IMG/VR virus record: IMGVR_UViG_3300042566_000762
Coordinates: 1-64,000 of that record
DNA length: 64,000 bases
Source: a virus
Direction: 5' to 3' (one strand)
How positions within the stretch are numbered: the stretch's first letter is position 1; each line of letters opens with the position of its first letter. Of the stretch, positions 29,184 to 64,000 are shown in pieces. Under the pieces are notes generated by a model. It had not been told where the DNA came from, ran no database searches, and was given only the letters and a program-made list of their open reading frames with translations. The position numbers were made by a program, and so were the translations under genes.

Positions 29184-29657
29184 TTAAAACTCCCCCTGGT
29201 CAATAATATTCGATGCAGTAAGATAAACTTCTAAATCGGTTGCAAACGTATCTCCTAAAGATGCAGTATAAGAATGGAATGATTGTGTCGTTGTATAAGA
29301 TGTAGTTATTGCTCTTAAACTTGAACTTACCGATTGACTTAATGCGGTCACCGATAATGCACTTCCACTTAATGTAGCTGCAATTGAAGAACTTATTGAT
29401 GATGATATTAAAATTTGTGATGAAGATATTGAAGCACTTACAACCGCTACTTCTAAATCTGTGGCTATATCATTATATCCAATTGTTCCCGTAATAAATA
29501 TTTGAGATGAACCCGATACAACACCATCAGGTAAAGTAGCTGCTACATTATCTTGTATGATATCAATTACCGATTGTGAAAAATCGGTACCAATGTTTGC
29601 AGATTGTTGTAATGCAGAACCACTTTCTATTTGTTTTAATCTTATTAAGTTTGCCAT
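29184..29657 (-). CDS. short fibre-associated protein with stalk repeat
   Basis: The 157-residue protein starts MANLIRLKQIESGSALQQSA. Residues ~70-110 (DLEVAVVSASISSSQILISS) repeat the stalk sequence of the 714-residue fibre downstream, and the C-terminus FATDLEVYLTASNIIDQGEF matches the protein at 26596. It therefore looks like a mini-fibre assembled from parts of its neighbours. SGSSQIF is present once as linker. No enzymatic motif. It may pair with the adjacent fibre. Confidence 0.65.
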   Translation of the reverse strand: MANLIRLKQIESGSALQQSANIGTDFSQSVIDIIQDNVAATLPDGVVSGSSQIFITGTIGYNDIATDLEVAVVSASISSSQILISSSISSSIAATLSGSALSVTALSQSVSSSLRAITTSYTTTQSFHSYTASLGDTFATDLEVYLTASNIIDQGEF

Positions 29658-36297: not shown

Positions 36298-37911
36298 TTA
36301 TAAAGTGTTCAAACCTTCAACGATAACTTTACCGTAGAACTCAGGTCTTACGATTTTCTTAGCGTATCTAGTCATAACACCTCTTCTTGGAGTGAAGTTA
36401 GTTGGGTCATAAACTAATGGAGTCATAATCAATGGAACATATGGTGCGTAAACTGCTCCTGTTTCGAAGAAGTTAGAACCTTTGAAGCCCATTAAGATAA
36501 CGTTCTCTGTCATGTATGGGTTTTTGTAAACATCATATCTGTTAGAGATTGAACCGATGTTAGTTACACCTGCTGCGAAAGTTAACGCATCCTTACCAGG
36601 ATTTGCAGAGAAACCATTCATTGATTCTAAAATAGTAGCTACGTTTGGAGATACAACTAAGAAGTTAGCACCACCTCTCATAGTCAATTGGTGAATCTTG
36701 TTAGATACCTTTTGTAATTTGATACCTAAAGTTTGATACCAAGTACTCTTAGTGTATGCAGATGCTGCAGCCGCGTTAGCGTCAATTGCAAATGCGTTAG
36801 TTGCACTATTGTAATCGTATCCAACTCTTGCAGACCAATAATCAGTTGTGAAAGCATTTTGTTGTAACATATCTAAGATTTCTAAGTCGATTTCTAAAGA
36901 GATGTATTCAGACAACATTTGAGTTAACTCAGCTTCAGCGTCTACACTATGGTAAGCGTTTAAATCTTGAGCTAATTCAGGAGTCCAAATTGCTTTTAAT
37001 TTTCTTGTCTTAGCAACGATTGGTTCAGATTTCAATTCTAATTCGATTTCTGGAATATTGATATCAGCACCAGTTCTATCTTCAAAGTCACCTCTGTTGT
37101 AATCGGTTGGTTGAACGTGGTAAGTTAATACCTGAGTTCCCAAGTTAACATCAGCTGCAGCAGAACCAGAAAGGATAAATGATGCAGAACCTTCAGATAA
37201 TGTAGTATATTCTGGTAATAAAGTTGTTGTTGCAGAACCTGAAACTTTGAAAGCTTTGATTCCGTTGTAATCAGCATCAGCAGGTAACCCAACAGTTACT
37301 TTCATAATTCTGTGGTTAGCTCCAGCGATAGAAGCAGATAATGCAGAATCAAATCTAACATCAGCAACAGATGCAGAAGCTACAGTAGCTGTTACGTTTG
37401 CAGTTGTGTCGTTGATTGTGTATCCAAATCTACCAGAACCATAAAGACCACCTTCAGTAGCTTGAGTAGAACCCAATTTGTTTCCTGTTGGAGATAAATT
37501 GTCTTTACCGAAAGTACCACCATTACCGAACATAGAAGAACCAGATGCTGGTCTACCTAAAGTTGTGTTAGTACCATATTTGAAATCCATGTAGAAAATA
37601 AGACCTGAAGGTAAGTTCATTGGTTGAACTGAAACGAACTCTTTAGAAGCGATAGAACCGAAGATTCTTCTTACTAAAGGTAACGCAACACCAGCCCACT
37701 CTTCAGAACCTGAAGATGTACCTGTTCTTGTAGCCTCATCTAATAATTGTTTTGCTTGGTTTTCTAACATTACTGCCATACCATGCTTGTTTGTTTCAGA
37801 ACCTGCGTTCTCTAACAAACCTGTTTTTTCCCACTTAGCTTTCAAACCTCTTGTTTGCTCTAACATAAGAGTTTGAGGGTTTGCGCCAGTCATTAATTTT
37901 TTTAAGTCCAT
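36298..37911 (-). CDS. 23: major capsid protein gp23-like
   Basis: The 537-residue protein carries LENQAKQLLDEATRTGTSSG, GVALPLVRRIFGSIASKEFV and SVQPMNLPSGLIFYMDFKYG, the hallmark of T4-like gp23. Later come RKLKAIWTPELAQDLNAYHS and the C-terminal RRGVMTRYAKKIVRPEFYGK. T4 gp23 has 521 residues. T4 gp23 is cut by protease gp21 after its N-terminal ~65 residues; here GSEEWAG near residue 60 lies in the right area but the cut site is not assigned. It forms the hexamers of the prohead. It follows the scaffold gene and is ended by a strong terminator. Confidence 0.97.
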   Translation of the reverse strand: MDLKKLMTGANPQTLMLEQTRGLKAKWEKTGLLENAGSETNKHGMAVMLENQAKQLLDEATRTGTSSGSEEWAGVALPLVRRIFGSIASKEFVSVQPMNLPSGLIFYMDFKYGTNTTLGRPASGSSMFGNGGTFGKDNLSPTGNKLGSTQATEGGLYGSGRFGYTINDTTANVTATVASASVADVRFDSALSASIAGANHRIMKVTVGLPADADYNGIKAFKVSGSATTTLLPEYTTLSEGSASFILSGSAAADVNLGTQVLTYHVQPTDYNRGDFEDRTGADINIPEIELELKSEPIVAKTRKLKAIWTPELAQDLNAYHSVDAEAELTQMLSEYISLEIDLEILDMLQQNAFTTDYWSARVGYDYNSATNAFAIDANAAAASAYTKSTWYQTLGIKLQKVSNKIHQLTMRGGANFLVVSPNVATILESMNGFSANPGKDALTFAAGVTNIGSISNRYDVYKNPYMTENVILMGFKGSNFFETGAVYAPYVPLIMTPLVYDPTNFTPRRGVMTRYAKKIVRPEFYGKVIVEGLNTL

Positions 37912-37939: not shown

Positions 37940-39172
37940 TTATTTTATAATACCTGCTAATTTCTTAAATCTGTCGGAGAAATTTGTGCTTTCTGCAATT
38001 ACTGCTTTAGCTTGTGCTGGCTTAGTAGATTTTGATACTTTGCTAGCAATTCCTTCAGAAATAGATTTTTTAGTAGATTTTTGTGTAGTTGAAGTATATT
38101 TGAAGTTCTCTGCTAATGTAGAGAATACCAATTTAACCTCTCTTACTGATTTTGTTCTATCCAAAGTTTCAATCACTTTAACTTTTTGTTCGTTAGTCAT
38201 GTTGTGTGCTCTGAATAATTTATTAGCGAATAATAACTTAGCGTTTAATAAGTTTACTTCGTTAATTGTTCTTTGTAAAGATTTGATAGTCTTGTAAGCT
38301 TCGTTTAATTCAGCATCTTTTTCGTCAGCTTTCTTATCTTCCGCATCACCTTTCATATCATCTTCCATTTCTCTTAAGATTTCTTCTAAATCAACAACTT
38401 CTTTGTCATCTTCTTTAGAATCTTCTTCAGCTTCGTTAGTTGATTTCTTTTCGTCATCTTCTTCTTCAGCTTCGTTGGTTGCTTTTTCATCATCTTCTTC
38501 TTCAGCTTCATACATAGAATCTTCTTCTTTTTCAGAATCGTCTCCATCTAATTGTGCTTCCAATTCTCTGATGATTGCTTCTAAGTCCATATCATCTTCA
38601 GACTCTTCGTCATCAGAACCCATGTCCATTGAATCGTCACCCATTTCAGAATCCATGCCCATGTCATCCATGCCCATTTCATCTTCACCTTCTGCTTGTG
38701 CAAATGGATTTTCTTCTTCTTCAGAATCTTCTCCTTCTAATTCTGCCAATCTAGCTTTCAATTCTGCAATTTCTGCATCTTTGTCACCTTCTTGGTCATC
38801 AGCGAATGGATTTTCTTCTTCAGAAATGTCTGCTACTTTCTTATAGTCAGTACCAGCTTGTTCTGGCTTACCACTATCTTTTTTTACACCTACTGATAAA
38901 TCAGTATCTGCATCTAAAGTTGGTGTTGCACCAGGAGTCTCAGCGTATCCTGCTTCAACTTTTGAACCGATTCCAGTAGAATCTAATTCTTCGTCAACTT
39001 TTTTAGCGTCATCATCTTCCATTTCTGCTTCTGCTCTCATCTTTTGAGATAAGATAGATTGTAGTCTTGGAGTAAATGCTTCTTCTAAAGCTAACTTTGC
39101 GTTTGCTAAAGCGGTTTCTTTAACTGCTTTGGCATCAGCGATTGCTTCTTTCAATAATTTTGAATTTGCCAT
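37940..39172 (-). CDS. 22: prohead core scaffold protein gp22-like
   Basis: The 410-residue protein starts MANSKLLKEAIADAKAVKET and is followed by a helical ALANAKLALEEAF segment, as in gp22-like cores of marine T4-like phages. Residues ~110-300 are extremely acidic, with Met-Asp/Glu runs and near-repeats of EEEDDEKATNEA. The C-terminal ~80 residues are helical and basic (VRVKVIETLDRT-type sequence, ending FKKLAGIIK). Scaffold cores template the prohead and are degraded by gp21. Position between gp21 and gp23 is diagnostic. Its start has a full AAGGAG Shine-Dalgarno sequence, unlike the other genes. Confidence 0.85.
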   Translation of the reverse strand: MANSKLLKEAIADAKAVKETALANAKLALEEAFTPRLQSILSQKMRAEAEMEDDDAKKVDEELDSTGIGSKVEAGYAETPGATPTLDADTDLSVGVKKDSGKPEQAGTDYKKVADISEEENPFADDQEGDKDAEIAELKARLAELEGEDSEEEENPFAQAEGEDEMGMDDMGMDSEMGDDSMDMGSDDEESEDDMDLEAIIRELEAQLDGDDSEKEEDSMYEAEEEDDEKATNEAEEEDDEKKSTNEAEEDSKEDDKEVVDLEEILREMEDDMKGDAEDKKADEKDAELNEAYKTIKSLQRTINEVNLLNAKLLFANKLFRAHNMTNEQKVKVIETLDRTKSVREVKLVFSTLAENFKYTSTTQKSTKKSISEGIASKVSKSTKPAQAKAVIAESTNFSDRFKKLAGIIK

Positions 39173-39180
39173 CTTGTTTT

Positions 39181-39186
39181 CTCCTT
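39181..39186 (-). promoter_or_regulatory. strong Shine-Dalgarno sequence of the scaffold gene
   Basis: AAGGAG on the minus strand ends eight bases before the scaffold ATG (39170-39172). I checked the upstream regions of the other main late genes and saw no comparable match, which makes this site exceptional within the window. Confidence 0.75.
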
Positions 39187-39359: not shown

Positions 39360-39536
39360 CTAAAATAGTTTGTTTTTTCTTATAGTTTCTTCTTTTTGTA
39401 ACCTCTTTCTTTTAGAAGGTTTGATAAAGTTCTTCCTTTCTCTAAGTTCTTCTATTTGTTTTATGGACTGAACTCTCTTTTTGTAATCTTTTATTGCCCA
39501 CTCTATGTTTCCACCTTTAACACTTACTACTAACAT
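39360..39536 (-). CDS. rpsU: phage-encoded ribosomal protein bS21
   Basis: A 58-residue frame starts MLVVSVKGGNIEWAIKDYKK and contains ELRERKNFIKPSKRKRLQKE. The family pattern is clear: a short beta start with V-x-V-K, AIKDYKK matching the A-x-(K/R)-(R/F/Y)-(K/F)-(K/R) helix, ELRxRxxFxKPSxxRxR in the second helix, and a basic tail. Bacterial bS21 has 55-75 residues and sits on the 30S platform next to the anti-Shine-Dalgarno end of 16S rRNA. The gene starts five bases after the 123-residue gene and precedes scaffold gp22. Phage-borne bS21 is known in other aquatic phages. It could replace the host protein during infection (inference). Confidence 0.85.
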   Translation of the reverse strand: MLVVSVKGGNIEWAIKDYKKRVQSIKQIEELRERKNFIKPSKRKRLQKEETIRKNKLF

Positions 39537-39540
39537 TCTT

Positions 39541-39912
39541 CTATTGTAAATTTGTCAACTTGTATTTTGTTGAGTATAATAAAGTTACAATATTATCTAT
39601 GTCGTTTTGTAACCAACTCATTTGTAATTTTTCGTCTTTTCTTAATTTTGCAACTACTGCAATCAATTTATCAAAATATCCAATAATATTTTTAATATCA
39701 TTATTTGTATCTAAACCACTTACCGGTTGTAATTTAATCAATCCGTATTGTCCTTGATATGCTTCAACTAAACCATCCACTAATCCGCCAATTGTATCGT
39801 AATAGTTTCCCAACGCAATATGTGCTGAAAATGAACCAACACCTTTAACTCCTACATGGAATGAATGTGTTTGTGTTCTACTATGTAATAACAATGAAGC
39901 TAATTGTTCCAA
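39541..39912 (-). CDS. hypothetical head-region protein
   Basis: The 123-residue protein starts MEQLASLLLHSRTQTHSFHV and includes VKGVGSFSAHIALGNYYDTI, GGLVDGLVEAYQGQYGLIKL and a helical end. It looks like a soluble helical protein and resembles the DUF5856-type 'HxxHW...H..L..YY......D...E' Dps/ferritin-like pattern (LLHSRTQTHSFHV...ALGNYYDTIGGLVDGLVEAY). That assignment is tentative. It lies between the protease and bS21 genes with 1-5 base gaps, so it belongs to the capsid operon. Many T4-like phages of aquatic origin have such a gene there. Confidence 0.6.
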   Translation of the reverse strand: MEQLASLLLHSRTQTHSFHVGVKGVGSFSAHIALGNYYDTIGGLVDGLVEAYQGQYGLIKLQPVSGLDTNNDIKNIIGYFDKLIAVVAKLRKDEKLQMSWLQNDIDNIVTLLYSTKYKLTNLQ

Positions 39913-40622: not shown

Positions 40623-41213
40623 TTAATTAAGTTCTATTATAATTTCTCTCATTAAATCTTGTGACCTACACCACTTACCACATTCTTCTGCTATCTTTGC
40701 CCATTGTTTTGATTCTTGCAAAGGTGCCATAAATGCTCCATGTGTTGATGGATTGGATACGAAATCCCATCCAACTAATTCAAAGTCTTCCTGAACCATT
40801 ACAGTCCCATCTCTCATTTCTTTTACCGAACCCAATCCTCTTGATGAAATACCTAAACGAATATTATTTTTTAATAATTCTTTTAATATATTTCCTGATG
40901 GTGTTGAAAGTATTTCTACTACACCACATACATCATCACCTTCCCAATAGATTTCTCTAATGTTATGTGATACATTCTTTAAGTTGATAACCGGAGATTC
41001 AGGATGGTCTAACTCACCTAATGCTCTACGTTCTTTAATAAGTTGTTCGTATTTTTTACACTCTCTTTCTAAAATTTCTCTAGGATATCTTCTATTATTT
41101 TGATTTGGAGCACCTGCTCTTTGCAAAATTCCCTTAACTAAATAAGTTCCGTTTTCTTCTTGTTGAAGTTTTGCCTCAAACAAATGTGTTTCTATTAATA
41201 ATCCTTTATTCAT
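40623..41213 (-). CDS. 21: prohead core protease gp21-like
   Basis: The 196-residue protein carries LVKGILQRAGAPNQNNRRYP, GELDHPESPVINLKNVSHNI and IRLGISSRGLGSVKEM. The His in GELDHP (His70) and the Ser in GISSRG (Ser123/124) fit the catalytic His-Ser pair of the herpes-assemblin-like prohead protease family. DFELVGWDFVSNPSTHGAFM is the conserved C-terminal loop. T4 gp21 cleaves scaffold, capsid and internal proteins during head maturation and has 212 residues. The place ahead of scaffold and capsid genes agrees. Confidence 0.92.
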   Translation of the reverse strand: MNKGLLIETHLFEAKLQQEENGTYLVKGILQRAGAPNQNNRRYPREILERECKKYEQLIKERRALGELDHPESPVINLKNVSHNIREIYWEGDDVCGVVEILSTPSGNILKELLKNNIRLGISSRGLGSVKEMRDGTVMVQEDFELVGWDFVSNPSTHGAFMAPLQESKQWAKIAEECGKWCRSQDLMREIIIELN

Positions 41214-42999: not shown

Positions 43000-44739
43000 T
43001 TACTCTTTATTGAAATCTTCCGTTAAAATAGTTTTTTTATTACCATTCATATCTTTAAATATCTCCTGATAATTATTTCTTGGTTTATATTTTACGGAAC
43101 CTTCTTTTGCTTTAAGTGTCTTAATTCCCAATGGGTCTCTACCTTCTGGATGGTCATCCTTACCATATCTAACGGGGTCTTTAGGTCTACCCACACCATC
43201 TTCTTCTAATTCGGTTTTTAATCTATTCAATTCTTCTTCTACATTTGTAGGGCCCTCTGTTCCAGTTTCTTTTGCCGGGTCCATACCCTGAGTTTCGATA
43301 GATGTTAAACGGAATGTTTGTTTAGTATCATCTAATACTTGCAATGTCATTTCATCTTGTTCATCTTTCGCCATTTTCATTACCGCATCATACATCCATT
43401 CTTTAGAGAACATCTTTGTTTGTTGCATTTGTTGAATTAGAGCTACCTTAGAGGTGTATAACTCAACTTGCTCTTGCTCATAGATTTTAGATGGGATAGT
43501 TAATTCTAATGAAAAATTAGTTAATCTATCATCATCGATACCTTGTGCATATAAATGAACAATTGCAATTTTAGTTAATTCTGAAATAATTACTCTTTGA
43601 ACTCTTTCGATTGTTTTTGCAAAACGGATATCCATTGCTGCAAGAGTTGCTTTACCATTTGTATCTTCTTCATAACCCATATATGCTTTTGGAATCTTCA
43701 ATGCTGCCATTAACTTACCTTTCAAGTAGTTAATATCATCAATCATATTATATTCCAAACCTTTTAGAGTATCAATTGAAGTTCCATTATCATTACCACG
43801 AACTGGCATATAATAATCTTCAATAAGGTTTTGCATATTGTATTTTAAGTTATACTCACCCGTTCTTTCATCAACAAAAGGAACTTTTTTAGATGAGTTT
43901 ATAATTTTTTGCATGTAATTATCCACTTCATTTGGTGGAATATTACCTACATCAATTTTAAAAATTCTCTTTTCAGGAGCTCTCATTACTCTATGAATTA
44001 ACATAGCATCTTCCATTAACATTAATTGTTTCCAAACTCTTCTACCACCTTCAATCATTGATTTACCATAAGGTAAGAAGTTTGAATCCGAATTTAAACG
44101 GAAGTGTGCCATTTCATAGTTTTCAAATTCTTTCTTTGCAGATTGTCCTACTGAATTATATGGATTTTGGTATGGAGCGTATACAAACTTAACTCTTTGT
44201 GGATTTTCTGGGTCGAATCCTTCTACCCTACTCATTTCATATACCGATAATGGTGCAACACCAACGATACCAACTTTGTCTGCCATTTCTAATTGTAAAA
44301 AGAAATCACCATATTTAACCAAATTTCTAGCCCATGGCCATAAATTAAATTCAACATTAAGAATATCGTAAAATAAATTTTCTAATATTTGTTTAATATT
44401 GTCATCCTCATGATGGATTTTTAAAACATTACCCATTTCATTTCTAGCAGTACTTTCATCTGCATAGACATCCAATGCCGATGATAATATCGGGTCCATA
44501 TCCATAGAATCATAGTCTCTAAATAAATCTATTCTAACTTGTTGATATGCCATTGAAGATTCAACTTGGCCACTACCATAGTTAGTGACTTTCATTTTCA
44601 TAAATCTATCAACCAAATTTGTGGTCATATTTTGCCACTCATCGGTATCAACAACTTTTATACCATCTTGCGTTTGACGAACAATTGTATTTGTTGAAAA
44701 TAATTTTTGTAACCTACTAAATATTGTTTTATCTGCCAT
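43000..44739 (-). CDS. 20: portal vertex protein gp20-like
   Basis: The 579-residue protein has DLFRDYDSMDMDPILSSALD, VYADESTARNEMGNVLKIHH, FNLWPWARNLVKYGDFFLQL and RRVWKQLMLMEDAMLIHRVM. It also has APEKRIFKIDVGNIPPNEVD and KDPVRYGKDDHPEGRDPLGI. These are conserved across T4-like gp20 proteins (T4: 524 residues). Gp20 forms the dodecameric ring through which DNA is packaged and initiates head assembly. It lies downstream of the terminase, separated by the DUF5872-like gene. Confidence 0.95.
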   Translation of the reverse strand: MADKTIFSRLQKLFSTNTIVRQTQDGIKVVDTDEWQNMTTNLVDRFMKMKVTNYGSGQVESSMAYQQVRIDLFRDYDSMDMDPILSSALDVYADESTARNEMGNVLKIHHEDDNIKQILENLFYDILNVEFNLWPWARNLVKYGDFFLQLEMADKVGIVGVAPLSVYEMSRVEGFDPENPQRVKFVYAPYQNPYNSVGQSAKKEFENYEMAHFRLNSDSNFLPYGKSMIEGGRRVWKQLMLMEDAMLIHRVMRAPEKRIFKIDVGNIPPNEVDNYMQKIINSSKKVPFVDERTGEYNLKYNMQNLIEDYYMPVRGNDNGTSIDTLKGLEYNMIDDINYLKGKLMAALKIPKAYMGYEEDTNGKATLAAMDIRFAKTIERVQRVIISELTKIAIVHLYAQGIDDDRLTNFSLELTIPSKIYEQEQVELYTSKVALIQQMQQTKMFSKEWMYDAVMKMAKDEQDEMTLQVLDDTKQTFRLTSIETQGMDPAKETGTEGPTNVEEELNRLKTELEEDGVGRPKDPVRYGKDDHPEGRDPLGIKTLKAKEGSVKYKPRNNYQEIFKDMNGNKKTILTEDFNKE

Positions 44740-46019: not shown

Positions 46020-47627
46020 TTACTTTAGTAACCAAGTTAGATTTTCAGTATTTCCTCTAGTGTCATTCATTTCATATGGATTTGTTTTTAGATGGCCTGT
46101 TGAGATTAATCCTTCATATTTGTTTATATGTGCTGAGTTTAACATTTGTTTTGTCAAATCTATACCTTCTTGTTTCAATCTCAGTGCAGTATTACGAACC
46201 CAAAGTCCAATACCCAACGCCATAATAAGGTCATCATTATATCCTTTCATTGCTTCTGCTCTACCATTCTGCCAAATGAACGTAAACATTTCATCTATCA
46301 ATCTACTTGAACGAATTAGAATATCTTTTTCATTCATATATGTGTCTAATGCTGAAATAATAAGTGGACGAGTTTTACTGGTCGTTGAAAATCCTGCAAC
46401 CATTTGTCTTTCGTCTCTATAATATTTGTTTGACATTTGTCTTTCCGTATCAATATATTTCAAATCATTACTCATATAGAATAAGTTTTGATATCCTCTA
46501 TTGATAATTTGTTGAATACATGCCCAACCTACATTTGAGTTCTCTACTACTAAAAGTGCGTTATTATATTCGGTTGCCAATGCAGTTAAAAAGTTTCCAA
46601 AATCTTTTGTGTCAATTTTACCTCTATATTCTGCAACTTGGGAACTATCTTCTATATCTATAACTTGTGCAGTAGAATAGTCAGCTCCGTCACCACGTGC
46701 AACGTCCGCACATACCATATATGCTCTATTGTAATTTGGATGTTCCCATACCCAAAGATTATTATCAAATCCTCTTTTTTGTGCAGGTTCCATCACATAT
46801 GTATCTTTATACCATGTCAATAATGCCGGTTCAAATACCGTATCACCTGAACCAACAAAGTCACAATCACATTCTTGTGCCGCACCTTTAACTCCTAAGA
46901 TTTTAGTTTGTTCATCTCTCCATGCCTGATTCCTTTCTGGGTGAACTGTCCAATGTAGATTGATATTATTAAATCCATTTTGGCCACTTTCTCCGTCTAC
47001 CCACATTTTATGAAACCAATTACCAATACCATTTGGAGTTGATAATACGATTGCAGCACCACCTGTTGATAGAGTCGATTGTGCTGATAACCAAATTTCA
47101 TCAATATCTCTAATGAATGCAGCTTCATCCACAACTAATAGGGATAAGGCTTCGGAACGACCTGCGTCCGGAGAACTTGCGATTGCTTTTACTTGTGAAC
47201 CATTTTTTAATTTAAGAGAAAGTTTGTTATCTTCTACCGAACTACTACCCCCATCTCTTAACCAAATAGGAAGTAAGTCGTGCATAACTCTTACCTTCTC
47301 TACCAGATTCTTCGCTACGGTCACTTTTGTTGCGATTACCAATGCATTGAAGTCTTGATTGAATAACATCTTCCATAAAATATATCCTGCAGATAAGGTC
47401 GATAGACCCAACTGGCGGGATTTAAGAATAATGTTAAAACGATTATCTTTAAAGTCTGTTAAACAATTTTCCTGGAATGGATAAAGGTGAAAGGGTATTT
47501 TTCCTCTCACCGGATGTTGAATGACACAATACTTCTTCATAAAGTAAATTGGGTCTAACGCACACTTGCGATATTCTTCAGCAATTATCTCTTTTAAGGT
47601 TTTCTTAGGTTGCCCCTGAACTCCCAT
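46020..47627 (-). CDS. 17: terminase large subunit gp17-like
   Basis: The 535-residue protein has an ATPase domain with the Walker A-like loop ILKSRQLGLST (residues 67-77), Walker B LSLLVVDEAAF (161-171) and coupling motif LSTPNGIGN. The C-terminal RNase H-like nuclease has Asp308 in VCADVARGDGADYS, Glu362 in LLVVENSNVGW and a third acidic motif YNDDLIMALG near residue 480. T4 gp17 (610 residues) has the same arrangement and packages DNA through the portal, cutting concatemers. Its start overlaps the previous stop as TAATG. No small terminase is identified with certainty. Confidence 0.95.
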   Translation of the reverse strand: MGVQGQPKKTLKEIIAEEYRKCALDPIYFMKKYCVIQHPVRGKIPFHLYPFQENCLTDFKDNRFNIILKSRQLGLSTLSAGYILWKMLFNQDFNALVIATKVTVAKNLVEKVRVMHDLLPIWLRDGGSSSVEDNKLSLKLKNGSQVKAIASSPDAGRSEALSLLVVDEAAFIRDIDEIWLSAQSTLSTGGAAIVLSTPNGIGNWFHKMWVDGESGQNGFNNINLHWTVHPERNQAWRDEQTKILGVKGAAQECDCDFVGSGDTVFEPALLTWYKDTYVMEPAQKRGFDNNLWVWEHPNYNRAYMVCADVARGDGADYSTAQVIDIEDSSQVAEYRGKIDTKDFGNFLTALATEYNNALLVVENSNVGWACIQQIINRGYQNLFYMSNDLKYIDTERQMSNKYYRDERQMVAGFSTTSKTRPLIISALDTYMNEKDILIRSSRLIDEMFTFIWQNGRAEAMKGYNDDLIMALGIGLWVRNTALRLKQEGIDLTKQMLNSAHINKYEGLISTGHLKTNPYEMNDTRGNTENLTWLLK

Positions 47628-48994: not shown

Positions 48995-51900
48995 TTATGC
49001 GTAAAAAATACCTAATATCTGATTTAGTGGTGCAAATGTACCAGTTAACTTATATGTTTTACCATTATAAAAGAATACTAAACCTTCACTTGCAACTATT
49101 TTTTCAATACCACCCAATTGATTTAATCTTTCCAATTCAGTTTTCAATTTTTGTATTTGAGCTGGATTTCCAGCACTTCTAACTTGGTCTGCTACTGATT
49201 TGAATTTTTGTTTCATCGCTCTAATAGCATTTTCAGGGTGAACAGTTAATACACTTCCAACAAAATCTAATACATCCGCACCTACACCTAAAAATATTTC
49301 TTCAAATGGTCTAATGTTTTCTTTTTGTTGTTTGATTACATTTACTTTATCATTTTCAATTGCCCACTCTTGCAATTCTTCATTTGAAATTGTGTTTAAA
49401 CGAAATGTTTTTTCGCCAAACGCCCATCTTCTAATCAACGCTTCTTTAGTAATTTTATCAACTTTAGTAGGCGCTTTTGATTCAATCCACCAATCCCACC
49501 AACTTTGATGATAATCAGCCACATTGTCCGTATCTTTTAAATGAAATTCCGATTGTAATTTATTTAATTTTGATAAATATTTACCTTGTTTAGAACTTAA
49601 ATTATTATCTTTTGGAATAGAAGTTATGGGAGGGCCTTGAATCGTATATTTTGATTGAACATCTGCGTTTACTTGTTTAATCATTCCCGCCAATTTAGAT
49701 GCCGCTGATTGGTCTGCACCAACTGCTTCACCTTTTTCATTATAACAAGTTGTATTATGAAATACTAAAAGTGCTTGGCCATATGGAATAACATTAACCG
49801 AATCTGGCCATATTACTTCTAAATTCATAAAGCATTGGCCTTCGTTAAATATTTTCTTTCTTTGTGCTTCCGATAACCCACTAATTGCTGCTGATAAATC
49901 TTTCATTGCAAAGTTGTAAGCATCGGTTAATCCACCTCTACCGGCAAACTTTGATGCAACATCTTCGATACCCATTGCGTTTGCACCTGCGTTTGCTAAA
50001 TTACCTTTATTTCTGGCTGCAATCAATCTACCATTTTTCCAACTAATTGCTAATGCCTGGCCATCTGTTTTTTCTCTAACAACTCCCAAGTCACCTTCTA
50101 ATGCAGATTTAATTATATTTTTCAAATCACCAAAAGTCAAATCCATATCATCAAAAGGATGTGACATGTGTCCGTATGCACCACCCTCCATCAATAATCC
50201 CTCTTTAATAAATTCCGTTTCTACATAATCAACATCTGGAAGGTTTTTTATACTATATGTAATAGTTCTTTCTTCTGCATCGTCATCACCAAATATTGCA
50301 TCTGCTTTTGGAAAATCAGTTTGAGTATATCCACCATTTTTATACCAATCTTCACTTTTATCGGTATTTAATTTTCTTTTTTTACCTTTTTGAACAAATG
50401 AACCATCTGGAACATCTGCGGTATTGGATACCATAACACTACTAACTTCGTTTAAATCGGGTTCAATATTTAATTCTTTTTCCATTCTGGTAATATCATC
50501 ATATCCCATATTACGAAGTGCTTTTGCAACTGCCGTTGGGTTGTTATGATTTGGATTACCAAATAAAAATGCATTAATTCTTTTTCTGAATTTTGCATCT
50601 CTGTAAAGTTGAATTATGTTTTTGAAATGAATATCTTTATTACCCATTTCATATATATTTTGTCCTTTTTGTCCTAAACGAAATGTGGTTGCCTTTTTAC
50701 CATTTATAGTTGGCATTCCGTGGTCATCTTTACCAATATCTTTAACAACAACTTTTTTGTTTTTGAATTTACCCATTAAAACCTCATCACCCTTATCAAC
50801 ATCTATATTAATATCTTCATTATAGATTTGTTTATTTATCTTACCATAATTTCTCATTAAAATACCGGCTACTGCATGTGCTTGATTTTCAATTGGAGAA
50901 CCAGTTGCACCATCTTTAACTTCATCTTTTACTAATCCCAATTCATCTTGTTTTCTATGAACCATTTCGTGTGCAAGAGTTCTAAGTATGTCTGCAGTTA
51001 ATCTACCTTCTATTGCAACATATATTTCTTTAGACATTGGATTATACCCACCTAAAGAGGTTTTTGCTTCTGAATATTCTCTACCACTTAGTAAAGTTAT
51101 TTTTGGAGTTTCTTTTAACTTTAATTTTTTAGTTGCATATTCTACAAAATGTTGAATTGAATTTTGTTTTGTTTCTGAAATATTTTCGTTTAATCCTTTT
51201 GTAAGATTTTGTAATTTTGAAATTTCCTTTTGTTTTTTATAAGATTCCAATGTTTTTAATAATTGTTGAGGATTTGGTTCAAATGTTTCCATTTTTTTAA
51301 CAACGTCTGCAACTAATTTTATAAACATATCACCATTTGCTTTTGTTTCATTTACTTCTTCCGCCAATCCCATTCCTTTAAGTGCCATATGTCCCAATCC
51401 AAAAAGGCCTGCACCTACTTGTGCTTCGATGTGGCCCTCACCCGCTGCCAATCCTAATGCTTCTAATCCACAATGTTTTCCAAAATCAATTGCTGCATGT
51501 GCTGCAAATCCTCCCACACTTGATACGGAATGTGATGCACCTTGACTTGCGGCTTGTATTACTCCACCAATACCCTTTCCTGCCGCAGCTGCACCGGTTG
51601 CTCCTGCGATTGCTGCACCGACAACAACCGATGCTCCTATTACCGCTACATCTTTAAGAGTTGAAATACATGCTTTTCTTTGTCTTTTTTCCTCATGCTC
51701 ACTATGTTTATATTGACCATCTTTATCTTTAAACCAACCAAATTTAGGTTTTCCTGTATACATAGTTGATAATGCCAAAGATTTTAAACCTCTACCGGTA
51801 TTTTTTAATTGATGGTATTTTTCTTTTACAACTTCGTATACTTTTTCAGCTATATTTTTTGGAAGATTTGAAATAAAATCACCAATTTTTTGAGACCAAT

Positions 51901-53254
51901 TTTTTCTTGTTTCAGAATGTGGGTTGGTTGTTTCATGAACATCATGTTGTTCTTCTTCCGTAAAATCTTTAATTATCGCTTCACATTTTACTTTTGCCTC
52001 TTTTGCTATTTCAGCAGCTTTTTCTTTAATTTTATCTATACCAGATTTTTCAGCATCAGATTTTAATTCTCCACCTCCTAACTTTTGTTCAGGTGGGGGG
52101 CCTTGTTCTTGACCTTTTTCACCAGGTGCAGCAGTTGGTTTTTCTTTATCTATTTTTCCCTGCGGCGTTTGTCCTTTTTTTGTGGGTTGGCCGGGTTCGG
52201 ATGGTTTCGCCGATTGAGTTGCTGCTTTTCCAGGTTCCGTTTTTTTCTTTGGGTCGTTTGCAGGTGCATCATCTGGTCCTGCTATTTTTGAAGCTTGAAT
52301 GTGTGCTGGATGTTCTTTTGGTAATCTTAATGCATCTCTTGCTTTAATTTTCTTTTGTTGGCCTTTACTATTTGTATAACTAATATCAACATCCAATGCT
52401 TTATTTGAAGCTTCACCAAAATATTCTTTAGCAAATTCTTCAAACATTTCATTTGTAATATATCTTTCTATTATTTCTGAAATGGGGTCATATGGTGCTT
52501 TATTTCCGTCAAATGCCTTTTTCTCATCTTCGGGATGTTCCGTTTCATGTCTTGTAGGATGTGGTTCTGGTCTCATTTCCGATGATGGTTTTGTATTATT
52601 GGTTTCATCTATTGAACCTGTTGGTGCACCATTGATATATCCTCCCGGTAAATTCAATCCAACTCCTATTCCTCCTGGAAATCCTTCGTTCAATTTTGTT
52701 GTTATCATTTTAAAAATCTCTTTGTCAAATTTTGGATATGCTTTAAGAAAAAACTTTTTAGCCTTTTCTTTATCGTTACTTCCCAATCCTCGTCTAACTT
52801 CGGTTCCACTTATAGGATTTTCTTCGGCAGGTATTGGATATGTATAACCTATTTCATCGTAACCATATCCAGCATTGCCTTTATATGGTTTAAAATATTT
52901 TCCCTGTAATCTACTTGCATCTTTATCACCTACTGCTGCAATATATGCAATAGTTTGTCCGTCATATTTTTTTAATATTTCGGCAGGTCTATATGGATTG
53001 TTTACTTTTACAAACTTAGTAGATGGAACACCAAACATCTTAGTTGCAATTTCCTTTTTCTCATTAAAAGAAAATGGAGATTTATCGGAAGATGTATCAT
53101 TTGATGTTGCAATATAAACATTTGCAGAACCAAATTCACTTACTAAGTTTTGATATGCCGCATAATGTCCTTTATGGAATGGTTGAAAACGACCAGCATA
53201 TACGACTATTTCACCTTGTATTTTTGGTTTATCTTTTTCTGTCAATAAATTCAT
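48995..53254 (-). CDS. multidomain nucleotidyltransferase / metallopeptidase / ligase-like fusion protein
   Basis: The 1419-residue protein has four regions. Residues 14-190 are a HxGH nucleotidyltransferase like NMN adenylyltransferase (YAGRFQPFHKGH, His27/His30; ISGTEVRR at 148-155). Residues ~330-400 are Pro/Lys-rich linker. Residues ~530-630 are Ala/Gly-rich and hydrophobic (VAVIGASVVVGAAIAGATGA). Residues ~690-800 hold a metallopeptidase site, AHEMVHRKQ (His762-Glu763-x-x-His766) and a possible third ligand in PIENQAHA. Residues ~1020-1419 form a covalent nucleotidyltransferase (DNA/RNA ligase-like): EKTDGQ with Lys1062, NLEVIWP with Glu1146, SEGLVFF with Glu1390 and KTYKLTG with Lys1399/1402. 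No family with this exact order is known to me. It is the first gene of the packaging block. Function unknown. Confidence 0.85.
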   Translation of the reverse strand: MNLLTEKDKPKIQGEIVVYAGRFQPFHKGHYAAYQNLVSEFGSANVYIATSNDTSSDKSPFSFNEKKEIATKMFGVPSTKFVKVNNPYRPAEILKKYDGQTIAYIAAVGDKDASRLQGKYFKPYKGNAGYGYDEIGYTYPIPAEENPISGTEVRRGLGSNDKEKAKKFFLKAYPKFDKEIFKMITTKLNEGFPGGIGVGLNLPGGYINGAPTGSIDETNNTKPSSEMRPEPHPTRHETEHPEDEKKAFDGNKAPYDPISEIIERYITNEMFEEFAKEYFGEASNKALDVDISYTNSKGQQKKIKARDALRLPKEHPAHIQASKIAGPDDAPANDPKKKTEPGKAATQSAKPSEPGQPTKKGQTPQGKIDKEKPTAAPGEKGQEQGPPPEQKLGGGELKSDAEKSGIDKIKEKAAEIAKEAKVKCEAIIKDFTEEEQHDVHETTNPHSETRKNWSQKIGDFISNLPKNIAEKVYEVVKEKYHQLKNTGRGLKSLALSTMYTGKPKFGWFKDKDGQYKHSEHEEKRQRKACISTLKDVAVIGASVVVGAAIAGATGAAAAGKGIGGVIQAASQGASHSVSSVGGFAAHAAIDFGKHCGLEALGLAAGEGHIEAQVGAGLFGLGHMALKGMGLAEEVNETKANGDMFIKLVADVVKKMETFEPNPQQLLKTLESYKKQKEISKLQNLTKGLNENISETKQNSIQHFVEYATKKLKLKETPKITLLSGREYSEAKTSLGGYNPMSKEIYVAIEGRLTADILRTLAHEMVHRKQDELGLVKDEVKDGATGSPIENQAHAVAGILMRNYGKINKQIYNEDINIDVDKGDEVLMGKFKNKKVVVKDIGKDDHGMPTINGKKATTFRLGQKGQNIYEMGNKDIHFKNIIQLYRDAKFRKRINAFLFGNPNHNNPTAVAKALRNMGYDDITRMEKELNIEPDLNEVSSVMVSNTADVPDGSFVQKGKKRKLNTDKSEDWYKNGGYTQTDFPKADAIFGDDDAEERTITYSIKNLPDVDYVETEFIKEGLLMEGGAYGHMSHPFDDMDLTFGDLKNIIKSALEGDLGVVREKTDGQALAISWKNGRLIAARNKGNLANAGANAMGIEDVASKFAGRGGLTDAYNFAMKDLSAAISGLSEAQRKKIFNEGQCFMNLEVIWPDSVNVIPYGQALLVFHNTTCYNEKGEAVGADQSAASKLAGMIKQVNADVQSKYTIQGPPITSIPKDNNLSSKQGKYLSKLNKLQSEFHLKDTDNVADYHQSWWDWWIESKAPTKVDKITKEALIRRWAFGEKTFRLNTISNEELQEWAIENDKVNVIKQQKENIRPFEEIFLGVGADVLDFVGSVLTVHPENAIRAMKQKFKSVADQVRSAGNPAQIQKLKTELERLNQLGGIEKIVASEGLVFFYNGKTYKLTGTFAPLNQILGIFYA

Positions 53255-57951: not shown

Positions 57952-58923
57952 CTATCCCAAATTTGCATACCCTAAAGGAAATCCATTTCTAAATTCTGCA
58001 CTCATTTTGGGAACTATCATTTGATATGCCATTATTAATTCCTGTATACCATTATCCAAATTTACATGTGGTCTCCAACCGGTTTCTTCTATTTTTGAAT
58101 TTGATACAATATAGTTTCGTTTATCAGGGTCTTGATAATAATCATCGTATACTACTGCAAAATCTTTTACATATTTTTGTATTTTTTCCAATAATTCTTG
58201 TTTATTCAAATTTGCATCACTCAATCCAATATTAAAAACTTCTCCTTTATATCTTTCATATCTATCCAACATAAATGCAAATACGGATGCTACATCTCTA
58301 ATATGAATAAAATTTCTTTTAAATGTTTTTTCAAATACAACAATGTATTTATCGGTAATAGCTTTATAAACAAAATCATTTACTAATAAATCCGTTCTCA
58401 TTCTAGTTGAAACTCCAAATACGGTTGCTAATCTAAATACGATTGCATCAGTACAATTTCTTAAAAAATTTTCAGCTTCACATTTAGTTTGACCATAAAC
58501 CGATATAGGAGTGAGTGGAGATTCTTCATTACATTCCAATTCACCCGTTCCTAACCCATATCCACTATTTGTATTTGGATATAGAATTTTTTTATCTTTT
58601 CCGTTTGTAAATTTAACAATATTAACTATTTGTTGAAAGTTAATTTCTTTTGCAAGTTGTGGGTCTGCGTCGCATGCAGGAAACCCAACAATGGCTGCCA
58701 ATGGAATTATTACATCTGCTCCATCACAAAGTTTTTCTAATAATGTTTCATTACGGACATCACCATAAATAAATTTAAATTTAGAAGTATATGTATATCC
58801 CAATAAAGATGTTTGATTAAATAATAATTTATCTAATACCGTTACATTGTGGCCATCTTCCAATAATCGTTTTGTTATAACCGAACCTAAATATCCTGCA
58901 CCACCGGTAATGAAAACTTTCAT
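57952..58923 (-). CDS. NAD-dependent sugar epimerase/dehydratase (extended SDR)
   Basis: The 323-residue protein starts MKVFITGGAGYLGSVITKRL, with the NAD-binding GGAGYLG loop at residues 7-13. SGYGLGTGELECNEESPLTP and SVYGQTKCEAENF contain the catalytic Ser120 and the Tyr143-x-x-x-Lys147 pair. RNFIHIRDVASVFAFMLDRY and GEVFNIGLSDANLNKQELLE are typical of the substrate-binding half. These enzymes act on nucleotide sugars (epimerase, 4,6-dehydratase or reductase). Together with the RmlC-like gene downstream it suggests deoxysugar synthesis. The last ~40 residues are duplicated in the chimera at 56414-56593. Confidence 0.88.
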   Translation of the reverse strand: MKVFITGGAGYLGSVITKRLLEDGHNVTVLDKLLFNQTSLLGYTYTSKFKFIYGDVRNETLLEKLCDGADVIIPLAAIVGFPACDADPQLAKEINFQQIVNIVKFTNGKDKKILYPNTNSGYGLGTGELECNEESPLTPISVYGQTKCEAENFLRNCTDAIVFRLATVFGVSTRMRTDLLVNDFVYKAITDKYIVVFEKTFKRNFIHIRDVASVFAFMLDRYERYKGEVFNIGLSDANLNKQELLEKIQKYVKDFAVVYDDYYQDPDKRNYIVSNSKIEETGWRPHVNLDNGIQELIMAYQMIVPKMSAEFRNGFPLGYANLG

Positions 58924-59702
58924 AACTTATTTTTAATATAAATATAAAATTCTTTTGAAAAATTGTCATGCCATAATTCTCCTGGGTGGTGATTATCTCT
59001 AGCTTTTAAATCATTTTTATAACAATTTATTGGGTCAAAAAATGTATCATAATTTATAGTAGAATTTAATTCCGATTTCAATTCTTTAAAAACATCGTAA
59101 TAATATCCAGCTATTGTATGAAATATTTTTATATTGTATAATTTTGCAATTACTTCTACGAATTTGTAAGCTTCCCAAAATGTCATTAAATCCTGATAAT
59201 CATTTCTTAATTGAACAAACATCAAATCTTCATCTTCGTTTTTCCAAACTAAATCCATATCATTGGCCATTCTAAATCCACCTATTTTTTTAAAAGAACC
59301 ATTTTCTTTAATATAATCTCTCCTACTAAAACCAGGCCACATTATCAAAACCATATCCGGTATAAATTCGGATGAAATTATTTTATATAATGTTTTCGCT
59401 ATAAATGAAGTCGATGCACCATACATTCCATAATTAAAAACTTTACCAAATTGTTCACCAATAAGATTTGGCCATATTTTTTCATTTTTAACACCAATAC
59501 CCATAGTCCAAGAACAACCCAATGTTAATATGTTATAATCGGATTTATCTTTTAATGGGTTAGAACGATACCCATGTTCATTCATTTTATACCAAATTGT
59601 ATTATCATCATTTGTATCACTTGCTAATGTTGGTAATATTTTATTTTTATATTGTTCAAATACAAAGACATCATCGGATAATATTTTTTCAAAATCTTTC
59701 AT
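58920..59702 (-). CDS. SGNH/GDSL-like hydrolase-family protein
   Basis: The 260-residue protein contains NILTLGCSWTMGIGVKNEKI (block I, GxSxxxG), VFNYGMYGASTSFIAKTLYK (block II) and DMVLIMWPGFSRRDYIKENG (block III region). ARDNHHPGELWHDNFSKEFY carries Asp and His at DxxH spacing (block V). It is thus the copy closest to a catalytically complete SGNH esterase, with Cys-Ser in place of Asp-Ser at block I. It overlaps the SDR gene by ATGA and shares a base with the previous stop. Substrate may be O-acyl groups on a surface polysaccharide (inference). Confidence 0.7.
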   Translation of the reverse strand: MKDFEKILSDDVFVFEQYKNKILPTLASDTNDDNTIWYKMNEHGYRSNPLKDKSDYNILTLGCSWTMGIGVKNEKIWPNLIGEQFGKVFNYGMYGASTSFIAKTLYKIISSEFIPDMVLIMWPGFSRRDYIKENGSFKKIGGFRMANDMDLVWKNEDEDLMFVQLRNDYQDLMTFWEAYKFVEVIAKLYNIKIFHTIAGYYYDVFKELKSELNSTINYDTFFDPINCYKNDLKARDNHHPGELWHDNFSKEFYIYIKNKL

Positions 59703-61144
59703 TAAATAATTAAGTTATTTTGAATAGAATACAATTCGTTTATAAAATCTGCACCATATAATTTTGTGTTATTATATTCTAAAAATAATTTTTGATTATG
59801 TAGTAATATATCTTCCATTTTCCAATACCATTCATGCAATTCTTCATTTGACATTGAACACAATCTTTTAATTTCATTGTGTATAGCTATCATTCTATCT
59901 GCTGTCGACTCAATTGTATCATATGTCTCATCTATGAATCCGTCAAATGTTTTAAATCCTAAGTCTCTTAACAATTGTAAACCCCCTGCAAATGTTACAA
60001 ATATAAATGGTTGAAAATTAACAATAGGTTTAAATATTTTTTCAGTAAGAGATTTATGTTCACCATCTACCAATGTTTCAAATAATATTTCAAAATAAGA
60101 ATCCAAATGTGGTTTAAAATCAACATCAGTCCATGCATTTATTTCTCCGTAAGTATTTCCTGTTTCACTTTGTAAATTATGTGGAAACATCGTATATGCT
60201 GATTTAATTTTGTCTGCATCTATATCATGTAATTTATACTCAGATATTAAATGCCTTAAACTGGGTTCATTTAATCCGTTTGTTGATAAAAATGACCAAT
60301 CTCCATATTGTAATAAATCATCATTTATCATTCTATACATAACTGCCAACCTATGTAATCTGGCATTTCGCATTTTCATTAAGTATTTGTTTGGTCTTAT
60401 TGTATTTTTACTGTTATTAAAATCATCTATATTCATTGATAATTTTAAATTATTTTTTATGCCATCGGAATAAAACCAAGAACCATGGTCTAAACAAAAT
60501 GGTAAATTTCTAACTTCGTATTTTCTATCTTGTGGTTTAAACCAATTTTCATACAATTGTCTGGCATTAAAACTATTGACAACAACAAATATTGATGTTG
60601 ATGGTAATCCACTATTTTTTAAACATTCGGTTAATCCGTTATGCATGTTTAAATCTAAAAAAGGTTCCATTGTATAATCTATGTAAATAATTCCTTTTCT
60701 TTTTTTTACTTTTTCCAAAACTTCTCTTGAAATAAATTTCCAAAAATACGAACCATTTAATTTGTCAGCTATACCATTTTGAACGCCTGTGAATTGTGTA
60801 AATATTGGATTTGGTCTAATTGGATATATAAATTTTTTATTTGTATTTCTTTCAAATAAAACCGAAGATTCTTTATAATCTAAATGTTCTCTATAAACAT
60901 TGGCTTGGAAAAAATATCCATGTGCTGTATTGGGATTATGACCCATTGAATCTTCAAACATATCTTTCATAAAAATTTGATTACCTCTATCGGTTGTAGA
61001 TGCTTCAAATATTGTAGAATGCAATGTTCTATTTGTGTGGACAGACGATATATAATTTATGATACCCAGTTGGGTATCTAATGCATTTGGTAATATAAAA
61101 GTAGGAAATATGTAATCAAATACAAATGTTAATTGTTTTTTCAT
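59702..61144 (-). CDS. glycosyltransferase-like protein (fucosyltransferase/exostosin-like C-terminus)
   Basis: The 480-residue protein has at residues ~360-420 the segment SYFEILFETLVDGEHKSLTE, then KIFKPIVNFQPFIFVTFAGG. This resembles the acceptor/donor motif of alpha-1,3-fucosyltransferases and related GT-B enzymes (TEKxxxPIxxxxPF(I/V)). The N-terminal half (FVFDYIFPTFILPNALDTQL, FIYPIRPNPIFTQF) is unlike known families. The segment KYLMKMRNARLHRLAVMYRM is basic and helical. Placement among SGNH-like genes supports a glycan role. I call it from the C-terminal motif only. Confidence 0.5.
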   Translation of the reverse strand: MKKQLTFVFDYIFPTFILPNALDTQLGIINYISSVHTNRTLHSTIFEASTTDRGNQIFMKDMFEDSMGHNPNTAHGYFFQANVYREHLDYKESSVLFERNTNKKFIYPIRPNPIFTQFTGVQNGIADKLNGSYFWKFISREVLEKVKKRKGIIYIDYTMEPFLDLNMHNGLTECLKNSGLPSTSIFVVVNSFNARQLYENWFKPQDRKYEVRNLPFCLDHGSWFYSDGIKNNLKLSMNIDDFNNSKNTIRPNKYLMKMRNARLHRLAVMYRMINDDLLQYGDWSFLSTNGLNEPSLRHLISEYKLHDIDADKIKSAYTMFPHNLQSETGNTYGEINAWTDVDFKPHLDSYFEILFETLVDGEHKSLTEKIFKPIVNFQPFIFVTFAGGLQLLRDLGFKTFDGFIDETYDTIESTADRMIAIHNEIKRLCSMSNEELHEWYWKMEDILLHNQKLFLEYNNTKLYGADFINELYSIQNNLII

Positions 61145-61146
61145 AA

Positions 61147-61935
61147 TTAATAAAATAATTTAGGGCCTAACCAAAAGGCTTTATTAAATGGTTCTAAAAT
61201 GATTTTAGAGTAAATTTCATGTTGTAATTTAGTTGATTTATTATTAACGGCTTTTAGTGATAACTCATATCTTAGTTTAGATTCTAATGTATCGTATTCA
61301 GGAAAAGTTTCCTTTAAATATTGGTAATGCATCGTTTGAGTTGGGTGTGTATCATAGTCATTTTGGTCATCATATTTTACATATTCTAACTGATTTGGGT
61401 AGTTTTTACGTCTCCAATCATCCATAGATTCTTTCACATCTAACATATCATAAATTGAATCAAAATAATATTGTATTAATTTATTATCTTTATATTCATT
61501 TGATAATGAATTATTATTCATAGATGTCAAAAATGTGTGTTTAATATTTTTTAGTGTTAATATTTCTTTAATAGTTTTAATTGCAATAAATGATTGATAA
61601 ACTGACCATTCACTTGACCACATATTTTCTAAAAACTCATTTGATATGTCAGGATTGAAATAAATATTTCCACCATGCACCCAGTTATTTTTATTTCTAA
61701 AAGAAAGCCTATCCATATTAGTAAACATAACAATTACATAATCCGTTTGATTTAAATTTAAATTATTATTGACTTCTATAAATCTGTTCATTATAAAAGT
61801 ATTGGATGCACCACCTTGTCCAAAATTCATATATTCTTCAAAATTTGCACCCATATAATCGGCCCATGTTGCAGTAAAATATCCAGTATAACTGCAACCA
61901 AATGTTATTAGTCTTTTATTATTAAATGTAGTCAT
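61147..61935 (-). CDS. SGNH/GDSL-like hydrolase-family protein
   Basis: The 262-residue protein begins with NKRLITFGCSYTGYFTATWA (block I with GCS), MNFGQGGASNTFIMNRFIEV (block II NxGxxGxS) and TDYVIVMFTNMDRLSFRNKN (block III). Near the end, YDTHPTQTMHYQYLKETFPE gives Asp-x-His-Pro. The spacing between Asp and His (two) differs from DxxH, as in other copies. Its start overlaps the upstream SGNH-like gene by 14 bases. The paralogues share little identity outside the blocks, indicating old or rapid divergence. Confidence 0.7.
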   Translation of the reverse strand: MTTFNNKRLITFGCSYTGYFTATWADYMGANFEEYMNFGQGGASNTFIMNRFIEVNNNLNLNQTDYVIVMFTNMDRLSFRNKNNWVHGGNIYFNPDISNEFLENMWSSEWSVYQSFIAIKTIKEILTLKNIKHTFLTSMNNNSLSNEYKDNKLIQYYFDSIYDMLDVKESMDDWRRKNYPNQLEYVKYDDQNDYDTHPTQTMHYQYLKETFPEYDTLESKLRYELSLKAVNNKSTKLQHEIYSKIILEPFNKAFWLGPKLFY

Positions 61936-62713
61936 TATTTTTCAATTTATCTAATATTATTTTGTATACTATTTCATGTCCTATATTTGATGTGTGCATT
62001 GTATTCATATCATCAGGATATTGATGGGAAAGTTTCATAAAATCTACATTGGCCAAATTTTTCATAGGAATATATTTATTAAATTCAACCAAATCATATG
62101 TTAAAAATATATGCTTAATACCTTTATTTTTTAATAATGAATGTGCTAAATTCATCATACCAATATCATATTGTCTTTGAATATTATCATCAAATATTTC
62201 TAAATAATATTCTTTTAATAATTTCATTCTAGTTTTACTTTCAGTATCAAATCTACTATAATAATTGGATTTCCAATTTGGATTGTCCATACAATTATCC
62301 ACATAATCAATTATACTATTAAAATTTTCAGTTAATAATTTACCATTATAATCACCATCTAATTGCATTGGATTTGGTATATTATATTTGTAACTATCTT
62401 TACCAAATGGTGGATATTGGTGATAATTCACATTGGTATTCTTAATATCTCCATTAAATTCATAATTTTCAGGAAACCATTCCGTTCGATTATATGTTGT
62501 AACACCGATGCACATTAAATCAATATTTTTATAATTTTCAATTGCATATTTTACTTGTAAAAATATAGAAAAATTAGAACTAGACCCTTTAGCTAAATTT
62601 ATTAAATTTAAATTTAATTTATCAGATAATAGTGAACCATATGGTTCTTTTTCTAAATTATGACAACCAATTCCTATATTAAAAGAATCTCCACAAATAA
62701 CTAAATTATTCAT
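61922..62713 (-). CDS. SGNH/GDSL-like hydrolase-family protein
   Basis: The 263-residue protein has NLVICGDSFNIGIGCHNLEK (canonical GDS block I), LINLAKGSSSNFSIFLQVKY (block II) and IDLMCIGVTTYNRTEWFPEN (block III). The end, SHQYPDDMNTMHTSNIGHEI, has His about five residues after Asp-Asp, so the block V Asp is not at the standard place. The nucleophile is intact. It lies in an unbroken chain with the genes on either side (8- and 14-base overlaps). Confidence 0.7.
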   Translation of the reverse strand: MNNLVICGDSFNIGIGCHNLEKEPYGSLLSDKLNLNLINLAKGSSSNFSIFLQVKYAIENYKNIDLMCIGVTTYNRTEWFPENYEFNGDIKNTNVNYHQYPPFGKDSYKYNIPNPMQLDGDYNGKLLTENFNSIIDYVDNCMDNPNWKSNYYSRFDTESKTRMKLLKEYYLEIFDDNIQRQYDIGMMNLAHSLLKNKGIKHIFLTYDLVEFNKYIPMKNLANVDFMKLSHQYPDDMNTMHTSNIGHEIVYKIILDKLKNNDYI

Positions 62714-63587: not shown

Positions 63588-64000
63588 TATATTAATTTTG
63601 CTTTAAACGCCGTTTCAGTATCGTGATATATTTTATTAAGTATTATTTTAGAAAAATCTCTATGTCCCTTATATGACCAATGTAAATCTTCTATTTCACC
63701 ATTGGTACAAGTTTTTATATTTTCATAAACTGTCCATAATTGTTCTACTTCCCAAAAAACCAATTTATCTATTTTTTTATTTTTTAAATATTTTTTAATA
63801 AAATCAAATCTTAAATTTTGTCTTTTTTTAGTATTTTCATCGCAAAGTAAAGATAAAAAATATTCTATATGTTCTATTTCATTTTTATTAAAATTCAATT
63901 GTTTTAATAATGCCGATGAATTTAAACTAATTGTATTAAATTTATAAATTATATCATTTTTAATATTAAATTCATTATTTGGAATATCAAATCTACTATA
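63587..64000 (-). CDS. SGNH-like protein, 5' truncated at window edge
   Basis: The frame is open from base 64000 without a stop: before the TTG at 63896-63898 it reads YSRFDIPNNEFNIKNDIIYK and then FNTISLNSSALLKQ. The TTG is therefore probably an internal Leu codon and the gene starts beyond the window. The C-terminal part has KLVFWEVEQLWTVYENIKTC and GEIEDLHWSYKGHRDFSKII, where EDLHWSxxGH resembles block V of the cluster's SGNH-like proteins (EDLHPGYFGH in the copy at 57132). Blocks I-III lie outside the window, so the call rests on this C-terminal motif and context. Confidence 0.6.
   Translation of the reverse strand, partial: YSRFDIPNNEFNIKNDIIYKFNTISLNSSALLKQLNFNKNEIEHIEYFLSLLCDENTKKRQNLRFDFIKKYLKNKKIDKLVFWEVEQLWTVYENIKTCTNGEIEDLHWSYKGHRDFSKIILNKIYHDTETAFKAKLI

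Follow-up and report, generated by a model that had tools for sequence, protein, structure and literature searches.

We found that a phage with a T4-like head operon encodes a ribosomal protein bS21 between its prohead protease and scaffold genes, and that this protein has an arginine at the position of the tyrosine (Tyr54) with which the bS21 of Flavobacterium johnsoniae docks on 16S rRNA. The likeliest reading of the alignments is that of a Bacteroidia-type bS21 that lost its docking tyrosine. The gene lies in the window, i.e., the whole 64,000-nucleotide stretch that was analysed, which covers positions 1 to 64,000 of the IMG/VR virus record IMGVR_UViG_3300042566_000762 (106,461 bases).

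bS21 is the commonest, and indeed dominant, phage-encoded ribosomal protein (PMC6375957), and its effect on the host ribosome is the underlying question. In F. johnsoniae, the anti-Shine-Dalgarno (ASD) sequence is kept hidden with the help of Tyr54, which stacks on the 3' tail of 16S rRNA; ribosomes with the Y54A substitution make about 3-fold more protein from mRNAs with a strong Shine-Dalgarno sequence (SD) and similar amounts from SD-less mRNAs, and delta-C ribosomes are poorer on SD-less mRNAs (PMC9976891). Residue 54 controls access to the ASD in a species for which mutant strains, reporters and in vitro assays are available. A natural clade of phages with arginine, together with one member with histidine, makes the retuning of message choice by phages addressable by direct allele swap. 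The gene is of a known kind, and the change falls in the residue most relevant to the function that a preliminary description of this DNA had proposed, namely that bS21 helps hide the ASD in Bacteroidota, so that a phage version could retune which messages are translated.

The head operon encodes a bS21

The bS21 gene (rpsU-like, 58 residues, ATG start) occupies exactly the open reading frame at 39360..39536 on the minus strand. Its product matches the Ribosomal_S21 profile (PF01165) over residues 4-55 in a Pfam profile search (42.2 bits, E 6.7e-11; gathering cut-off, 27 bits). Its best sequence matches in the PDB are bS21 chains, the top two of Bacteroidota type, including that of F. johnsoniae (7jil, E 2.7e-6). 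The alignment with the F. johnsoniae protein, for which we used a reference that matches 7jil letter for letter, gives 38-40% identity, and the core residues common to Flavobacterium bS21 are kept. An AlphaFold2 model (mean pLDDT 78) has the two helices of bS21 (residues 11-35 and 42-57) separated by the turn that contains the KPS motif. All six Foldseek matches of this model are bS21 chains and none is significant, as one would expect from a pair of helices that are only loosely joined. The summed dN/dS over 57 distinct nucleotide sequences is about 0.12, i.e., the gene is under purifying selection and is being maintained. The profile, the PDB matches, the neighbouring genes and the conservation put the assignment beyond chance: the frame is a real bS21 gene, as the preliminary description had recognised from its letters, and no other S21 occurs in the 106,461-base record.

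The surrounding genes, those given here with coordinates all on the minus strand, form a T4-like head module. They are, in order, the terminase large subunit (TerL, 46020..47627; PF03237, 31.7 bits; 52.6% identical to that of Flavobacterium phage immuto), the Gp20 portal (43000..44739; PF07230, 238.2 bits), the prohead protease (40623..41213; PF03420 Peptidase_S77, 102.3 bits), genes of 92 and 141 residues, a DUF5856 gene (39541..39912; PF19174, 54.4 bits) whose stop codon is 4 nt upstream of the start of bS21, bS21 itself, a prohead scaffold or core gene (37940..39172; conserved as a family, directly before the capsid gene and with no Pfam match), and the major capsid protein Gp23 (36298..37911; PF07068, 258.8 bits). 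Pfam matches and gene order agree with the location given earlier, inside a T4-like head operon from the protease side to the scaffold.

This location is correct and not special to this phage. A phage bS21 beside head genes is known biology: of 900 published phages with bS21, 310 have a prohead protease no more than 10 genes away from it (Chen 2022, PMC9723584). The occurrence of bS21 genes in other phages, also part of the preliminary description, is likewise documented by Mizuno 2019, by Chen 2022 and by the annotation of Microcystis phage Mel-JY01 (PP395634). In the Bacteroidetes myophages of Chen 2022 (clades a-e, PMC9723584), which also have predicted Bacteroidetes hosts, bS21 is found among terminase, portal, protease and capsid genes as in the window, but the head genes are on the other strand, whereas here they share the strand of bS21. 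In Mel-JY01, the gene annotated RpsU shares the strand of the prohead protease and capsid genes and lies between them, as in the window; the two phages are 58% identical in the major capsid protein, 51% in TerL and 22% in bS21, and Mel-JY01 differs by an N-terminal extension of bS21, two extra genes between bS21 and the scaffold and SD-rich genes (46%). Immuto (MW353177), by terminase among the two closest cultured phages, shares the head-gene order and the SD-less starts of the window phage and, unlike it, has no bS21 in 160 kb and no SD before the scaffold.

The bS21 slot in related phages

In IMG/VR we found 79 loci with relatives of the phage bS21 (68-100% identity). Using the capsid protein as query, we fetched 80 relatives (L084-L163). 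A bS21 gene is present in 28 of them, at capsid identities down to 53-54%, and in each case it lies in the interval from protease to scaffold, on the same strand. The bS21 strand is that of the head genes in the window and in every bS21-bearing relative examined. In a capsid tree of 67 rows, those lacking bS21 require four changes. This pattern fits an old slot from which bS21 was lost several times, though it may also reflect separate gains.

Vertical descent within the clade of the window phage is not supported: bS21 and capsid distances agree across the whole set (r 0.88) but show no correlation inside the clade (r -0.04). The bS21 protein is 100% identical to that of the window in 16 contigs (L002-L036), whose capsid identities range from about 72 to 100%. 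Both findings suggest capsid swapping or an extreme constraint on bS21 in this clade.

Two further observations concern the neighbourhood of the gene. Of the 82 loci that have protease, scaffold and bS21, 63 also have DUF5856, which is missing from all 19 loci lacking bS21; it may be a functional partner of bS21 or a mere clade marker. A 252 kb phage (G008) encodes an 86-residue bS21 directly before a tail-fibre-like gene (L267:5140-5400) and has a head operon devoid of bS21, which would reflect either relocation or separate acquisition.

Residue 54 in phage and cellular bS21

The window protein has Arg53 at the position of F. johnsoniae Tyr54. It thus lacks the aromatic residue able to stack on A1534 that marks the ASD-sequestering Bacteroidia bS21. 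Among the 88 untruncated sequences of the clade, a count in which a few contigs are included twice, this position holds Arg in 87 and His in one (L097). MAFFT may instead place a two-residue gap at position 54, and the tyrosine is absent either way. In the Arg-type phage sequences, offsets 1-14 after the KPS motif are free of aromatic residues. The clade has a conserved C-terminal sequence, ETIRKNK, that differs sharply from the C-terminus in cellular Bacteroidia. Compared with F. johnsoniae bS21 (7jil; McNutt 2023, PMC9976891), the phage protein shares the Bacteroidia-type N-terminal part and is 6 residues shorter. The replacement of Tyr54 by Arg at the C-terminus of a phage bS21 appears to be previously unreported. 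All 61 phage bS21 of Chen 2022 have an aromatic residue at position 54 (PMC9723584), unlike the window phage, and the Arg clade limits the published statement that this residue is kept in Bacteroidetes phage bS21.

The single member with His, L097, also has the most Bacteroidia-like profile score (91 bits) and offers a natural control for Arg. A separate group of bS21 phages (L139, L143, L144, L146 and L162) has a longer N-terminal part, Tyr in the position-54 column and SD-rich genes (about 40-60%). As these phages bear the tyrosine and yet are rich in SDs, an aromatic residue 54 and SD avoidance are not linked across these phages.

Cellular sequences vary more at this position. Tyr54 is found in 80/80 Flavobacterium-like loci. 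The first 30 genomes of class Bacteroidia all have an aromatic residue, these being the best-scoring ones; with the low-scoring ones included, 52 of 56 genomes are aromatic (48 Tyr, 3 His, 1 Phe), three have Arg and one has Leu. Across the phylum, Arg54 was found in 49 of 70 sampled bS21, mostly not of the phage's type. The phylum sample and the lower-scoring genomes of the class rule out that Arg54 is absent from cells. When residue 54 is left out, the window protein favours a Tyr-type over an Arg-type profile by 61 bits, 47 of which come from the N-terminal part. Its nearest cellular sequences are of Tyr type, and the highest-placed Arg-type genome of the class comes ninth. Two Arg-bearing sister phage lineages (L106, L108) are likewise closest to Tyr-type cells, while for one relative (L070) an Arg-type genome shares first place. 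The bS21 tree has 42 columns, and finer resolution is beyond such an alignment.

The host is probably a member of the Bacteroidota, likely of class Bacteroidia. Base use at -12, -13 and -3 of translation starts resembles that of Flavobacterium and immuto and differs from that of Mel-JY01, and together with the low SD use it supports a Bacteroidia-type host. A scan of genome contigs with the phage bS21 found no close cellular gene. The Bacteroidota-type promoter TTG/TAnnTTTG is not enriched in the window record, and SD use beside cellular Arg-type genes involves too few genes to place the host.

Translation signals of the bS21 gene and of the phage genomes

In F. johnsoniae, bS21 has an extended SD with autoregulation; the phage gene has none. 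Flavobacterium-type host rpsU genes have an SD at -7 kcal/mol or lower in 80/80 cases (median -15.8 kcal/mol), and 0/90 Arg-type phage genes have one at -5 kcal/mol or lower, i.e., the extended SD that marks autoregulation is missing. In the window, the 4-nt spacing from the DUF5856 stop means that translation of bS21 is probably coupled to that of DUF5856, and in 75 of 84 loci an upstream frame ends at a distance of 2-6 nt from the bS21 start. The gene would probably be translated by coupling or by SD-less initiation and should thereby escape the feedback of the host, since the missing SD and the tight arrangement both point to independence from its autoregulation.

SDs are rare in these phages. 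Gene starts were assigned heuristically, which blurs SD counts in all genomes, and with this proviso SD-bearing genes amount to 8% in the window record (null 3%), 9% in two large relatives (null 5-6%), 10% in Flavobacterium (null 6%) and 9% in immuto (null 9%), against 46% in Mel-JY01 and about 40-60% in some other bS21-bearing lineages. A global switch to SD use was rejected as a general rule: the Arg clade has about 8-12% SD genes, no more than relatives lacking bS21.

The one conserved exception is the scaffold gene, preceded by AAGGA in 76 of 82 bS21-bearing loci. In the window, the SD-like motif AAGGAG (39181..39186, minus strand) lies 8 nt before the scaffold ATG (39172). The occurrence of AAGGA in several relatives lacking bS21 weakens the case for a specific pairing of the scaffold SD with bS21, and the extended SD needed in F. 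johnsoniae is stronger than AAGGAG; for both reasons the link between scaffold SD and bS21 is only a lead. In the leader between bS21 and scaffold we found no sign of structured RNA (fold z -0.58, no terminator and no Rfam match). Outside the window, the G000 record encodes a gene of unknown function (94255-95310, minus strand) whose SD, AAAAGGGAGGG, is very strong and is kept in G001; the genome is otherwise SD-poor.

Possible roles of the phage bS21

We tentatively favour, at a little short of an even chance, the following account. The phage gene would encode a working bS21, made alongside the head proteins and presumably late, that enters the host 30S and replaces or competes with host bS21. 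The bS21 of Pelagibacter phage HTVC008M, of alphaproteobacterial type and host unlike those of the window phage, enters E. coli ribosomes (Mizuno 2019, PMC6375957), and in phages of a related type bS21 is transcribed together with the structural genes in late infection (PMC9723584). Lacking the extended SD and starting just after an upstream stop, the phage gene would supply bS21 independently of host feedback during the translation of late phage mRNAs, most of which lack an SD. With Arg in place of Tyr54, its grip on the 16S 3' tail would be looser, as in bS21(Y54A); substituted ribosomes would retain SD-less starts and respond better to the few SD-bearing genes, e.g., the adjacent scaffold. 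Several results speak against weaker hiding: SD-less genes prevail in the phage, the scaffold SD occurs in the absence of bS21 and is weaker than the published effect needs, and the host's own bS21 may be devoid of Tyr54, given that Arg occurs in class Bacteroidia and is common in other classes. A bolder version, which we regard as unlikely, holds that selection removed the docking tyrosine in this clade of Bacteroidia phages, so that infected ribosomes heed SDs that the host ignores; this would boost the small number of late genes with an SD, chiefly the scaffold, with the phage bS21 gene itself outside the SD feedback of the host. Of the retuning proposed in the preliminary description, the part least supported is that the phage copy aids the hiding of the ASD, the least likely version given the Arg at the position of Tyr54; weaker hiding, or plain supply, fits better.

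Under plain supply, a possible if doubtful alternative, the phage bS21 does the job of the host protein, topping up a limiting component in late infection outside the feedback, and Arg53 is neutral. The absence of an SD and the tight coupling, which would free the gene from host autoregulation, are compatible with this, and bS21 is kept in SD-poor and SD-rich phage lineages alike, so its benefit need not involve the ASD. The poorer performance of delta-C ribosomes on SD-less mRNAs (PMC9976891) also implies that replete ribosomes suit SD-less phage genes. The clade-conserved ETIRKNK terminus, far from that of cellular Bacteroidia, suggests instead selection for a different function. In what we consider an improbable scenario, the host lineage already has Arg54 and the phage protein mimics it with no retuning. 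The cellular Arg54 counts (3/56 in the class, 49/70 across the phylum) and a genome scan that yielded no relative and no host link leave room for such a host, but the window protein and both sister lineages are nearest to Tyr-type cells (the L070 tie notwithstanding), and one clade member keeps His. Finally, a small basic protein could have been recruited to head assembly or packaged in the virion; its action would then be off the ribosome or confined to the onset of infection. The slot between protease and scaffold is kept in almost all bS21-bearing relatives, and Chen 2022 raised virion packaging as a possibility (PMC9723584). We nevertheless judge this role very improbable: the bS21 core residues are retained, relatives lacking bS21 have the same head genes, and one relative with an empty head slot has its bS21 by a tail-fibre-like gene.

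Other features of the genomes

The octamer TATTTATA is strongly enriched between genes in the sense orientation (10 sense vs 1 antisense in G000, 25 vs 3 in G001). It peaks about 25-35 nt before the ATG in G000, G001, G002, L084 and L085, for example upstream of 48995-53254 and 29184-29657 in the window, and is a candidate phage-specific late promoter common to the whole group. At the end of the window (57952-64000) and in L081:1147-10873, there is a run of genes that includes an epimerase and, assigned by eye, radical-SAM-like, glycosyltransferase-like and several SGNH-hydrolase-like genes; this run is possibly a surface-sugar cassette.
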